DNA of 41,113 nt from a virus: IMG/VR virus record IMGVR_UViG_3300030390_001445, positions 1 to 41,113 of that record, one strand, 5' to 3'. Positions 10,419 through 14,593 of this stretch are shown here, in pieces. Position numbers and translations under genes: made by a program. Below the pieces are notes generated by a model. It made no database searches, was not told the DNA's origin, and saw only the letters and a program-made list of their open reading frames with translations. Every line of letters begins with the position of its first letter. The first letter of the stretch is position 1.

Positions 10419-10721
10419 ATGGCTTTTGAAGATACATTATTATTAAAATTAAATAGAGAATACTCAAAAGAAGAGTTAGTAGATTTTGTATTAAGAAGAA
10501 TAAAAGAGTTAAAGTTAAGTAACGGTAAAAATGAGTCTTACATACAAGAACTAATAAAAGAGAATAGCGAGTTAAAAGCTAAGTTAAGAAACACCAAACA
10601 ACGAACAAATAGTATTGAGTTATCTAAAAAAATAGAAAGATACAAGAAAAACACAAAATCACAATTAGAACATATTGTAAGATTAAAAAACGAAATTAAA
10701 GAACTAAAATCTAAATTATGA
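10419..10721 (+). CDS. Coiled-coil protein
   Basis: 100 residues, almost entirely helical and charged, with long heptad stretches (for example ENSELKAKLRNTKQ and LEHIVRLKNEIKELKSKL). Probably a small dimeric coiled coil. Its TGA overlaps the next ATG as ATGA. Function unknown. Confidence 0.6.
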   Translation: MAFEDTLLLKLNREYSKEELVDFVLRRIKELKLSNGKNESYIQELIKENSELKAKLRNTKQRTNSIELSKKIERYKKNTKSQLEHIVRLKNEIKELKSKL

Positions 10722-10950: not shown

Positions 10951-11086
10951 TTTAAAAGTAGCTAGAAGTTACAGCGAAAGCCAAAAGCAAAGAATTGAAA
11001 GTTTAAAAACTTTAGAACTTGCAAAAATGCAGGAAAAAGAATTGAATAAAAAAGTAAAATATTTAACTAAAAGATTTGTTTTATAA
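10940..11086 (+). CDS. Helical basic micropeptide
   Basis: 48 residues starting within the end of the previous gene. Lys/Glu-rich helix (SYSESQKQRIESLKTLELAK). Last gene of this operon. The -33 element of the next promoter lies inside its 3' end. Confidence 0.5.
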   Translation: MRDNLKVARSYSESQKQRIESLKTLELAKMQEKELNKKVKYLTKRFVL

Positions 11087-11106
11087 AAAATAAATAATTA
11101 TATTTG
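11076..11106 (+). promoter_or_regulatory. Bacteroidota-type promoter for a short RNA
   Basis: TTG (11076-11078), 20-base spacer, TATATTTG (11099-11106): full consensus. No gene follows before the terminator at 11140-11178, so the product would be a short untranslated RNA. Confidence 0.7.
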
Positions 11107-11112
11107 AATATA

Positions 11113-11178
11113 ATATTAGTTTTTTTTGGTTAGTTAAATAGCTGGTAGGAATGTAGAAATGAAACTATCAGCTTTTTT
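11113..11178 (+). ncRNA. Candidate small RNA ending at an intrinsic terminator
   Basis: Between the 11076 promoter and the end of a hairpin, agctggtag (11140-11148) / ctatcagct (11165-11173) with one wobble and then TTTTTT, lie about 65 bases with no plausible reading frame. The unit could be a small RNA or simply a terminated leader. The transcript start is estimated from the -7 box. Confidence 0.45.
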
Positions 11179-11211: not shown

Positions 11212-11219
11212 TATCTTTG
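11212..11219 (+). promoter_or_regulatory. Bacteroidota -7 box (TATCTTTG)
   Basis: A perfect TAnnTTTG box just before the structured region at 11226; no clear TTG at -33. It could start both the structured RNA and, by read-through, the replication operon at 11353. Confidence 0.5.
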
Positions 11220-11225
11220 TATTTG

Positions 11226-11325
11226 TATTGAAGTGAGACCCAATATAAATAATTAAAAATATTTCATAACCTCATAAGGAAAGGCGGTCTCACACTAAGC
11301 TAATTCTTATGGGGTTTTCTTTTAC
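11226..11325 (+). ncRNA. Candidate structured RNA with interleaved stems (pseudoknot)
   Basis: Two long stems are interleaved. Stem 1 is gtgagacc (11233-11240) with ggtctcac (11286-11293), 8 bp perfect. Stem 2 is aacctcataagga (11268-11280) with ttcttatggggtt (11304-11316), 13 bp with two G-U wobbles. Stem 2 starts inside the loop of stem 1 and closes beyond it, the H-type pseudoknot order. Stem 2 is followed by TTTTCTTTT, so it may also terminate transcription. It resembles no riboswitch I recognise. It could be a discrete RNA or a 5' leader controlling the operon at 11353. Confidence 0.6.
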
Positions 11326-11352: not shown

Positions 11353-11559
11353 ATGGAAATCAAATTTAAAACAGAAGTACACGAAAATTACAGTACTCAA
11401 TTAACAATTAGTAAAATTGAAAATGGTGTTTTTATTACTAATTCAAGTATTGAAGGAAATTTAGAAAATGAAGAAGCTACTCACTTCTTATCTAAAGAGG
11501 ATTTAAAAGATTTTATTGGAGCTTTATTACACGTTCAATCTAAATTAAGAAATGAGTAA
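11353..11559 (+). CDS. Hypothetical protein, replication operon leader
   Basis: 68 residues: a beta-rich N-terminal half (KFKTEVHENYSTQLTISKI) and a C-terminal helix (LSKEDLKDFIGALLHVQSKL). First gene downstream of the structured RNA; overlaps the next by one base (TAATG). Function unknown. Confidence 0.6.
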   Translation: MEIKFKTEVHENYSTQLTISKIENGVFITNSSIEGNLENEEATHFLSKEDLKDFIGALLHVQSKLRNE

Positions 11560-12221
11560 TGGAAAAGCCAACTAAAAGAAAAGCTTTTAATTTTTTAAGA
11601 AGTTATTTTGATGTCGTTAATGAATTAGAAAATGACACCGATAAACTTAATTTTTTAATGGCTATAATCAATAAACAATTTTTAGATGAAGACCCAAAAG
11701 AATTAACTTTTTTAGTTAATCTTTGTTATTCAAGTCAAAAACACTCAATAGAATCGAGTGTAAAAGGCTGGAAAAGAGCTAATAATACAGATATGAATGG
11801 CAACCCCTTGACAGACCCCCCGACCCCCTTAGGGACTAACCCCCAGACCAACCCTGAGGAAGAGAAAGAAGAAGAAGAAGAGAAAGAAGAAGAGAAAGAA
11901 GAATGTAAACAAAAATTAGAGCCAATAAATTGGCCAGAGTTATTAGAGTTTTTTAATAAAGTAACTAAAAAGAAAAGTAGAAGTATTCCAGATAAAGTTA
12001 AAAAGGCGTTTAAAGCAAGATTAAAAGATGGCTACACAAAAAAAGATATTGGTTTAGCTATTAGAAATTGTTACAACGACCCTTACCACATTGAAACAAA
12101 ACATAAACATTTAACTTTAGAGTTTATATCAAGGGCGGATAAAATGGATAAGTTTTGCAATTCTGAAGATAGAAAAGAAAACGGTAAGACTAACCAAAAA
12201 TTTATGACTTATGATGATTAG
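11559..12221 (+). CDS. Replisome organiser/helicase-loader-like protein
   Basis: 220 residues in three parts: an N-terminal helical domain (FNFLRSYFDVVNELENDTDK) like those of phage replication-initiation proteins; a proline/threonine then polyglutamate linker (residues ~83-115); and a C-terminal helical domain (RSIPDKVKKAFKARLKDGYT, then DIGLAIRNCYNDPYHIE and LTLEFISRADKMDKF) like the conserved C-terminal domain of phage replisome organisers. It sits directly before the primase-helicase and probably loads it. The linker DNA has a C-rich patch (about 11806-11860) unlike its surroundings. Confidence 0.7.
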   Translation: MEKPTKRKAFNFLRSYFDVVNELENDTDKLNFLMAIINKQFLDEDPKELTFLVNLCYSSQKHSIESSVKGWKRANNTDMNGNPLTDPPTPLGTNPQTNPEEEKEEEEEKEEEKEECKQKLEPINWPELLEFFNKVTKKKSRSIPDKVKKAFKARLKDGYTKKDIGLAIRNCYNDPYHIETKHKHLTLEFISRADKMDKFCNSEDRKENGKTNQKFMTYDD

Positions 12222-14043
12222 CGACAAATTTTTTAATTTAGGAATACAAGTTAAAGGAAATAGAACTGAACAAAAATGCAAATGTCCTAATTGCGTAACA
12301 CTTGGAAAAACTAATATAAACGATACTTGTTTGTCTATTAATTTAGAAAGTGGTTTGTATAATTGTCATAAGTGCGGTTGGAAAGGATGTGTGGCTGAAA
12401 CTAATTTTAAACGTGAAGAAATGCAAATAATTTATAAATTACCTGTAAAGCCAAATATATCTAAATTAACAGATGAGGCGTTAAAATATTTCGAAGATAG
12501 AGGTATTAGTCAAGCAGTAGTTTTAAAAAACAAAATTGCAAGTACTTCAGATGGTAACGGTGTTTTATTTCCTTACTTTAGAAATGGTCAATTAATAAAC
12601 TACAAAACAAGATTATTAAAAGAAAAAAGATTTTTTCAAGCAAAAGAGGCCGAGCCTATAATGTATAATCTTGACAGGATAACAGGACAAAAAGAAATAA
12701 TAGTGTGTGAGGGCGAGTTTGACGCATTAAGTTGGGAGGTTGCAGGATATGAAAACCATACTTCAGTTAATCAAGGTGCGCCAAATGAAAATGATACTAA
12801 CGTAGATAAAAAGTTAGAATGTATTACAAATTGTTATGAAGTTTTTGAAGATGCTGAAGTTATTTATTTGGCCGTAGATACAGATAATAATGGAATACGT
12901 TTACAAAAAGAGTTAATTCGTAGGTTTGGAGCTGAAAAATGCAAGATAGTAGATTTTAAAGATTGCAAAGACGCAAACGAATATCTAATTAAATATGGTG
13001 CTTTTGAGTTATCAATGCTTTTAAAAGAAGCTAAAGACGTAAAAATTGAGGGCGTTTTTACTTTAGAAGATAACTTTGAAAGTATGTTAAGTGGTTTTAA
13101 AAATGGTTATCAACGTGGCCAAACTACTTACATAAATGAAATAGACCAAGCTTGGAAATGGAGAAAGGGAGAAGTTACAGTTTGGACTGGCTACCAAAAT
13201 GAGGGAAAATCTTTATTTTTAAATCAACTTTCAGTTATAAAGGCCTTTTATGATAAAGATAAGTTTGCGGTTTTTAGTCCAGAGAATATGCCGATGGATG
13301 ACTTTTTTAATGATTTAATTGAAATGTTAGTTGGTAAGACTTCAGACCCTTATTATAAAAGTTTACAAATGTCAGAGATTGAATATTTAAATGCAAGTAG
13401 CTTTTTAAATAGACACTTCTTTTTAGTTTATCCAGACTTTGACTTTAAAATAGATACAATTTTTGAAAAGGTTAAATATTTAGTTAGAAAGCAAGGAATT
13501 GACCATTTAATAATTGACCCTTATAATACGGTTGAGCATCTAATGAGAAGCGGAGAAAGAGAAGATTTATACATTAGTAGGTTTATGGCCAAGTTAAAAA
13601 GGTTTGCAATTGAAAATGAAATTTCAATACATTTAGTGGCGCACCAAAACACAGCAAGGCCAGACGCAAACGATGGAGGCCGATATTATAAACCAAATTT
13701 AAATAATATTAAAGGCGGTGGAACTTTTGCGGATAAGGCCGACAATGTAGTGTACGTATGGAGGCCTAACAGGGCTTTAGATTTTAGATGTACTGAAGTT
13801 GTTTTTGGTTCTCAAAAGATTAAAAAACAAAAATTAGTAGCAAGGCCTTGCGAGGTTTTAAATATTGATTTTGATTTTAAAGCAAATAGATATACGTTTG
13901 ATGGTTTTACGCCTTTTAAAGATATTGATAAAAAAAGAGATATTAAACCAATAGAGAAAAAAGAATACAATATAATACCTGCTACAATAGAAGAGGCTTT
14001 TGATAATAACGAAAACAATGAAGAAAGTGAAATTCCGTTTTAA
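12211..14043 (+). CDS. Bifunctional primase-helicase (T7 gp4-like)
   Basis: 610 residues. A zinc ribbon (C25, C28, C52, C55) is followed by a TOPRIM primase core (VCEGEFDA with E167; AVDTDNNG with D223/D225). A RecA/DnaB-type helicase follows: Walker A GYQNEGKS (K333, S334), Walker B LIIDP (D436), and the HLVAHQN segment with H478. It would unwind the fork and make primers. Its start overlaps the previous gene by 11 bases. The C-terminus is acidic and ends ESEIPF, like the tip of the SSB-like protein at 8338 (DDSDLPF). No phage DNA polymerase is visible, so host polymerase is probably used. Confidence 0.9.
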   Translation: MMISDKFFNLGIQVKGNRTEQKCKCPNCVTLGKTNINDTCLSINLESGLYNCHKCGWKGCVAETNFKREEMQIIYKLPVKPNISKLTDEALKYFEDRGISQAVVLKNKIASTSDGNGVLFPYFRNGQLINYKTRLLKEKRFFQAKEAEPIMYNLDRITGQKEIIVCEGEFDALSWEVAGYENHTSVNQGAPNENDTNVDKKLECITNCYEVFEDAEVIYLAVDTDNNGIRLQKELIRRFGAEKCKIVDFKDCKDANEYLIKYGAFELSMLLKEAKDVKIEGVFTLEDNFESMLSGFKNGYQRGQTTYINEIDQAWKWRKGEVTVWTGYQNEGKSLFLNQLSVIKAFYDKDKFAVFSPENMPMDDFFNDLIEMLVGKTSDPYYKSLQMSEIEYLNASSFLNRHFFLVYPDFDFKIDTIFEKVKYLVRKQGIDHLIIDPYNTVEHLMRSGEREDLYISRFMAKLKRFAIENEISIHLVAHQNTARPDANDGGRYYKPNLNNIKGGGTFADKADNVVYVWRPNRALDFRCTEVVFGSQKIKKQKLVARPCEVLNIDFDFKANRYTFDGFTPFKDIDKKRDIKPIEKKEYNIIPATIEEAFDNNENNEESEIPF

Positions 14044-14098: not shown

Positions 14099-14593
14099 AT
14101 GAAAAAGTGTTTCAAATGTAACGAGGTTAAGGGTTTAGATTTTTTTTATAAACATAGCGGAATGTCGGATGGTTATTTAAATAAATGTAAAATTTGTAAT
14201 AAAAAAGATTCTAAATCTAACTACGTTAAAAATTCAAAAAACGAATTATGGATGCAAAAAGAAAGGGTTAGATGTGTAGAGAGAAACAAAAGGCTTGGTT
14301 ATAGTAAAAAATATAAATTAGATTGTTTATTTAATATAAGGGAATATAAAAACCTAAGCAGAAAACTAAACATACAAAAGCCTTATGAAATACATCATTG
14401 GAATTATAATGATGGGTTTGTTGAAGATATTTTAATAATGCATTTAAAAGAGCATAAAATAGCGCATAAATATATATTTAGAAAAAAAGGAGAATATTTG
14501 TTTAAAACAGTTAATGGAGAAATATTAGACACAAAAGAAAAGCACATAAAGTATTTAAAGGAAAAAGGAATAGTTATATTTAGAGAATTTTGA
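14099..14593 (+). CDS. HNH-like endonuclease with N-terminal zinc finger
   Basis: 164 residues. N-terminal CFKC (C4, C7) and CKIC (C30, C33) form a probable zinc finger. The central [10 protein letters not shown] (H99, H100) with [12 protein letters not shown] is the shape of an HNH-type nuclease core, as in phage free-standing homing endonucleases. The canonical second HNH Asn/His are hard to place by eye, so activity is uncertain. It has its own promoter, which suits an inserted gene. Confidence 0.6.

Follow-up and report, generated by a model that had tools for sequence, protein, structure and literature searches.

A viral genome (IMG/VR record IMGVR_UViG_3300030390_001445; the window analyzed here is the whole stretch from position 1 to 41,113, 41,113 nucleotides in length) contains, just ahead of its replication genes, a region at 11226-11325 in which two long stems cross in order. 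Is this an RNA structure that phages maintain, and if so, is it a discrete RNA or the leader of the operon behind it?

Both stems of the preliminary description are present where it placed them. Stem 1 joins GTGAGACC (11233-11240) to GGTCTCAC (11286-11293) in 8 pairs, all perfect, and stem 2 joins AACCTCATAAGGA (11268-11280) to TTCTTATGGGGTT (11304-11316) in 13 pairs, two of them G-U. Two helices had been overlooked. TATTG (11226-11230) pairs with CAATA (11241-11245) and closes hairpin 1, in whose loop the 5' strand of stem 1 sits, and GGC (11283-11285) pairs with GCT (11299-11301) as an apical stem within hairpin 2. Because each arm of stem 1 lies in a hairpin loop, the crossing is a loop-loop (kissing) interaction; the pseudoknot first proposed stands as a crossing, and "kissing loop" describes it more exactly. 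The position directly after the TATCTTTG box and before a T-rich run was also read correctly. The features of the locus are listed here.

11140-11173, plus strand: separate terminator-like hairpin 5' of the element's promoter
11212-11219, plus strand: -7 promoter box of the Bacteroidota type, TATCTTTG (TAnnTTTG), identified from sequence; it precedes the element in nearly all relatives
11226-11245, plus strand: hairpin 1, stem TATTG/CAATA and loop AAGTGAGACC, at the expected 5' end of the RNA; its pairs covary
11233-11240, plus strand: kissing arm 1, GTGAGACC, within the loop of hairpin 1, the perfect complement of 11286-11293; covarying
11246-11267, plus strand: linker, A/T-rich here and in all relatives, of variable length
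11268-11316, plus strand: hairpin 2, outer stem 11268-11280/11304-11316 and apical stem 11283-11285/11299-11301, -18.4 kcal/mol; covarying
11286-11293, plus strand: kissing arm 2, GGTCTCAC, within the apical loop of hairpin 2
11314-11324, plus strand: T-rich run, directly 3' of hairpin 2 except for its first bases, which are the end of the hairpin 2 stem; it completes an intrinsic-terminator-like signal
11353-11559, plus strand: first ORF, 68 aa, PHROG 7002, function unknown; its ATG is 36 nt past the end of hairpin 2
11559-12221, plus strand: replication-initiation-type protein (PHROG 16167, 428, and 18020)
12211-14043, plus strand: DNA primase-helicase (PHROG 239, E = 4.7e-81)

That such a crossing would rarely arise by chance was borne out. 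Hairpin 2 is the dominant helix in ordinary folding (z = -2.3), and when the 100 nt were shuffled 3000 times with dinucleotides preserved, a comparable crossed pair appeared only once. Among 2051 segments tiled across the 41 kb, a comparable crossing was found in only two, both covering the 11226-11325 site. Each kissing arm has the other arm as its sole complement within the window, and neither loop has a second target elsewhere in it. A candidate second copy at 953 lies inside a coding ORF with unrelated spacing and was attributed to chance.

The absence of compensatory changes had been named as the result that would refute the structure, and such changes are present. We kept the statistics within subfamilies because a general alignment of all subfamilies did not work. 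In a sequence-only MAFFT alignment of 17 elements (A7), 98.7% of the cells were paired, 14 pairs carried double changes, and none of 500 shuffles matched any of these measures; both sides had changed in 7 of 7 kissing pairs and in 4 of 4 hairpin 1 pairs. When the partner was slid by 1 to 3 columns as a control, pairing fell to 27 to 42%. The window's own subfamily (A2, six sequences) had 13 pairs with double changes (0/500 shuffles), and in its kissing helix 6 of 8 pairs were doubly changed, the other 2 being invariant. The cultured phage filifjonk9-1, which reads TAATG-AAGTGAGACG-CATTA ... CGTCTCAC, has compensated changes in both the hairpin 1 stem and the kissing pair.

We also searched all viral contigs with the pattern GGTGAGTAGAG-N9-TCGAAAGCC, in which the internal loop and apical stem are fixed and the kissing loop is free. 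This search returned 52 contigs (32 distinct elements, 9 loop types), and all 52 had a perfect 7- to 8-nt complement of the N9 in the loop of a 5' hairpin, which was almost always just 3' of a promoter box. It is important to note that the search itself dictates the conservation seen in the fixed portion of the pattern, and many of the 52 contigs are closely related. A second, independent route was to search for the motif AGTTATNGGTNATCTTAAAACC alone: 15 of 17 contigs had a kissing RNA directly 5' of it, and the remaining 2 look like coding sequence. We regard a conserved kissing RNA as almost certain, and comparative analysis has shown that loop-pairing hairpins (6 to 10 bp) are maintained by selection in many phages.

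Two further observations concern sequences in and around hairpin 2. Its internal loop AGUA/GAA (in L010, L007, and the 52-contig subfamily) has the sarcin-ricin (bulged-G) signature, as recognized by eye, and other subfamilies have tandem G-A-like internal loops. The motif AGTTATNGGTNATCTTAAAACC is a second conserved element, absent from the window; 15 of 17 contigs (L295, L308 [10464-10485], L294, L303, L307, L299, L298, and others) have it between the terminator of the kissing RNA and the start codon, and it apparently forms a hairpin, NGGT/ACCN', with a covarying outer pair (C-G, A-U, U-A).

The element is widely distributed. BLAST matched 28 records of Flavobacterium phages (isolates of Muminvirus and Lillamyvirus, with their RefSeq copies) in which the corresponding place is occupied by an unannotated stretch of 76% identity; a small ORF, then an initiation-type ORF, and finally the primase follow it. 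The primase-helicase as query yielded several hundred IMG/VR loci. A promoter-anchored structural search (TAnnTTTG box, hairpin 1, hairpin 2 with a T-run, and loop-loop complementarity) found the architecture in over 20 distinct phages, ~800 to 1100 nt 5' of the primase, that could not otherwise be aligned with one another; kissing arms included GTGAGACC, GTGAGAAG, GTAGAGAG, GGTCTCAC, GCGTAGGA, GTGCAG, CTCACTAC, and GTCGAAG. The window scored 51.5 in this search. With a score of at least 44 there were 19 matches in 1918 real boxes, duplicate boxes or records of one element included, versus 0 in 1918 shuffled boxes, and with a score of at least 41 there were 29 versus 1. Matches above threshold in L120- and L066 (AT-rich repeats), L050, and L015 were taken as chance; the kissing arms of L006 and the overlapping boxes of L004 and L058 were checked by eye.

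Altogether, dozens of phages have the architecture, including Flavobacterium, Cellulophaga, and Tenacibaculum isolates. In Cellulophaga phages phi10:1 and phi19:1 and Tenacibaculum phage JQ the element falls within unannotated gaps, and Nekkels_1 has a variant with more branching. In morran9-1 (L355 1158-1301) a 48-aa hypothetical ORF, gp042 of the GenBank record, is annotated over the kissing RNA, probably spuriously. The element is missing from many marine relatives of the primase and thus is not universal in this replication module, and blastn matches in Lak and Parabacteroides phages covered the promoter box region only, with no element. A search of 395 Bacteroidota genomes with model R1 under strict filters found no elements; this model covers the large clade (that of the 52 contigs) plus a few others but does not recognize the window's subfamily. 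So far, the RNA family has been found only in phages.

The preliminary description allowed either a discrete RNA or a leader of the replication operon, and position favors the leader. Transcription is expected to start ~4 to 7 nt 3' of the box at 11212-11219, for which there are no 5'-end data. A TTTG at the -33 spacing of Bacteroidota promoters was present in 23 of 53 relatives; a sigma-70 scan was uninformative about promoters of the Bacteroidota. At the other end, 51 of 53 elements are T-rich where the stem ends (at least 6 T in the surrounding 12 nt; L298, L302, and L064 are among those with an imperfect U-run), and their hairpins corresponding to hairpin 2 are mostly at -15 to -20 kcal/mol. 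In the window, hairpin 2 is the stablest terminator-like hairpin on the plus strand. Our criterion for an attenuator, a stable hairpin plus U-run between promoter box and start codon, was therefore met. In the 51 elements with a readable first ORF, the ATG follows the end of hairpin 2 by 6 to 50 nt (median, 20), with recurrent spacings of 17 nt (12/51) and 15 nt (6/51), and none has a promoter box in between. We consider it very probable that the element is a cis leader, and the free RNA gene is the less favored half of the original proposal.

The separate hairpin at 11140-11173 probably ends the upstream operon; filifjonk9-1 has a hairpin and T-run at the same place. A promoter-like pair, TTTG and then TATATTTG near 11099-11106, precedes this hairpin, and within 11075-11173 the two may form a 65-nt promoter-terminator unit just 5' of the element.

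Across relatives, the genes behind the element encode replication-initiation and primase-helicase proteins, DUF6291 or DnaD-like first ORFs ("DnaD-like" is our own reading; Pfam gave no match), a KilA-N protein, or homing endonucleases. The leader lies 5' of free-standing homing endonucleases at L311 3159-3247 (GIY-YIG with NUMOD3), L339 9172-9264 (a similar protein), L070 4544-4629 (NUMOD4/HNH_3), and L061 1819-1910 (HNH_3). Timing or dosage likely matters for the operons led by the element. In the window, the ORF 3' of the primase (14099-14593) has a zinc-ribbon/HNH-type look and no Pfam match.

Our main reading, to which we give a probability of about 0.6 in the absence of expression or termination data, is that the ~95-nt 5' leader RNA is a cis-acting transcription attenuator for replication genes and sometimes for homing endonuclease genes. 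Transcription would start at hairpin 1 from the box at 11212-11219, and the loop of hairpin 2, once emerged, would kiss hairpin 1. Hairpin 2 and the U-run would then end many transcripts, so that the replication genes would be made only on read-through, and the kissing contact would tune the termination decision and lock the released short RNA. The kissing complex could form before the 3' arm of the terminator emerges, and it could speed hairpin closure or be a platform for a factor or for an RNA of the same type. Hairpin 1 and the kissing pair are compatible with hairpin 2, and no conserved competing stem was recognized; thus, our proposal is not that of a classical switch in which one fold excludes the other. 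That no alternative structures can be seen, as a classical attenuator would have, speaks against attenuation. Termination itself is inferred, and we judge its regulation to be probable without being secure. The kissing pair is best explained as the identity-bearing part of the leader, and the whole is an RNA element under active maintenance, probably a switch.

Several other explanations have to be weighed against the attenuator. The element might be a small RNA gene, producing a stable 95-nt RNA, its hairpins locked by the kissing pair, that acts in trans on RNAs or proteins of the host or of other phages while other transcripts serve the operon. It has its own strong promoter box and a terminator-like hairpin, its structure is conserved far better than its sequence, and it is phage-borne. 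However, the short and often identical distance to the ATG, with no box in between, ties it to the gene behind; its kissing loops are unavailable to any third RNA, and a conserved single-stranded stretch for target binding was not seen, so that we find this explanation rather unlikely. A leader that senses a protein or ligand, in which a factor would read the shape of the kissing complex and so determine termination or translation, is also unlikely in our view. Rop recognizes the ColE1 RNAI/RNAII kissing complex by shape, and here too the shape is kept while the sequence is free, in a U-rich position close to the start codon. One large clade has an invariant AGUA/GAA internal loop, in part because the search pattern contained it, and L010 and L007 have this loop as well. 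Neither a conserved pocket nor a ligand-like consensus extends across subfamilies, though, and there is no shared candidate protein identified and no Rfam riboswitch match.

We hold a put-like antitermination leader to be very unlikely. The nascent folded RNA would stay on the polymerase for read-through of later terminators, with the U-run as a pause for folding, and position and size do agree with HK022 putL. Most of the primary sequence, loops included, differs between phages, unlike an RNA that touches polymerase directly, and the window's operon has few intrinsic-terminator-like hairpins behind the element. Finally, an ordinary terminator or insulator with fortuitous complementarity would fit the many inter-operon terminator hairpins in these genomes, but as stated it is refuted by the 52 perfect partners in 52 contigs, by covariation in every kissing pair, and by shuffles that fail to reproduce the pairing; we give it next to no credence.

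About 30 loop types were found in all, with sequences that vary by phage yet stay complementary. Each of the three commonest types in the 52-contig subfamily (GTCGTGG, GTAACGG, and GTTGCAG) occurs before three unrelated first genes (MAKNF, MERxK, and MRKA), and one loop type also precedes genes with ~70% mismatched positions, that is, unrelated sequence. Conversely, L318 and L328 have different bases at 6 of 14 kissing positions, although their flanks are nearly identical (8 differences in 300 nt downstream and 3 in 60 nt upstream), and other phage pairs have different loop types with a downstream divergence of only 2 to 4%. Thus, the leader is a mobile cassette whose type changes more quickly than the sequence around it. 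Where a contig has two copies (L061, L070, and L297), the loops differ in each case. This exchange resembles that of specificity determinants, for which plasmid incompatibility loops offer a comparison (PMC9458437), although it could also reflect recombination of the whole cassette, with no selection acting on type. Unrelated subfamilies (around the window and L002 versus L010, L011, and L071) share the hexamer GTGAGA in their kissing helix, on the hairpin 1 side in some and the hairpin 2 side in others, and this is unexplained.

Loop identity passes between phages much as a type marker would, and a more speculative extension of the attenuator builds on this: released short leaders might pair with nascent leaders of their own type, and the outcome would be gene-dosage feedback or the exclusion of co-infecting phages of that type. 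Such like-type trans control is possible but doubtful; once locked by its own kissing pair, a released RNA would hardly be free to pair in trans. The fuller hypothesis of a phage RNA type system, in which leaders, exchanged as cassettes, control one another's replication operons in trans when their types match, is more doubtful still. If true, loop type would set which genomes sense each other in a cell, with different types blind to one another, and would bring dosage control or superinfection exclusion among same-type phages. Two cultured phages of one host strain, filifjonk9-1 (GTGAGACG) and morran9-1 (GTGAGAAG), differ by one compensated pair and make cis versus trans action directly testable. 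Gene regulation in Bacteroidota phages is little known, and the element represents an undescribed structured-RNA family with unusually clean loop-loop covariation at a replication switch point. Moreover, its natural loop types are a ready set of orthogonal kissing pairs.

Among known systems, lysine and purine riboswitches combine kissing hairpins with an expression platform; the element differs in having two hairpins only, without a conserved ligand pocket or multi-way junction. The leaders of phage P4 (CI RNA) and Gifsy-1 (IsrK) yield a short RNA by premature termination and contain complementary segments in the same leader. A short RNA from premature termination in a phage operon leader is what we propose here, but the architecture differs, no trans function has been shown, and the element's phages are not temperate as far as tested. 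A P4-like role in lysogenic immunity is unlikely: of 30 element-bearing records, a good number being fragments, 1 has a tyrosine integrase. Such a role is also disfavored by the R1 result in Bacteroidota genomes; Muminviruses are described as lytic only (PMC7077304).

Rfam 15 gave no match at the gathering threshold, neither for the window nor for 23 loci from relatives. The sole full-length bacterial near-match was the trpB motif, RF04312 (21.7 bits against a 59-bit cutoff; E, 0.36 to 0.43), which likewise has a 5' hairpin, an A-rich linker, and a terminator hairpin in a 5' untranslated region. In the portion of its description available to us, this motif occurs in Firmicutes and Fusobacteria 5' of amino-acid genes, and no kissing loop is mentioned (PMC11109978). 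We rejected membership on the score, far under threshold, and on the different phyla.

Two systems come closer. ColE1 RNAI/RNAII and other plasmid copy-number controls are the nearest analogue by their 7-nt kissing loops: they control replication genes or priming, and the criterion of fully paired ~7-nt loops whose type varies while the fold is kept was met, in cis. Unlike in those controls, both loops of the element are on one RNA and pair in cis, in a phage rather than a plasmid; both arms are on one strand of one leader, and no opposite-strand promoter was recognized by eye. HK022 putL is a ~70-nt RNA of two stem-loops just 3' of an early phage promoter that acts in cis without a protein (PMC9378689), and put RNA is the closest functional analogue in location and size. 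The element meets the corresponding criterion, a two-hairpin RNA of ~70 to 95 nt at the start of phage transcripts directly after the promoter. It differs in its kissing pair, its terminator-like hairpin 2, and a start codon 6 to 50 nt behind; its sequence is not conserved, varying almost completely between subfamilies (no direct alignment to put was made), and there is no evidence that it acts on polymerase. Membership was established for neither system. Our survey of the open-access literature, which did not cover subscription papers or preprints, turned up no account of an RNA of this kind from Bacteroidota phages. Thus, as far as could be searched, the element is a new RNA family, one that would work somewhat like the plasmid kissing-loop controls or the HK022 put leader while belonging to neither.
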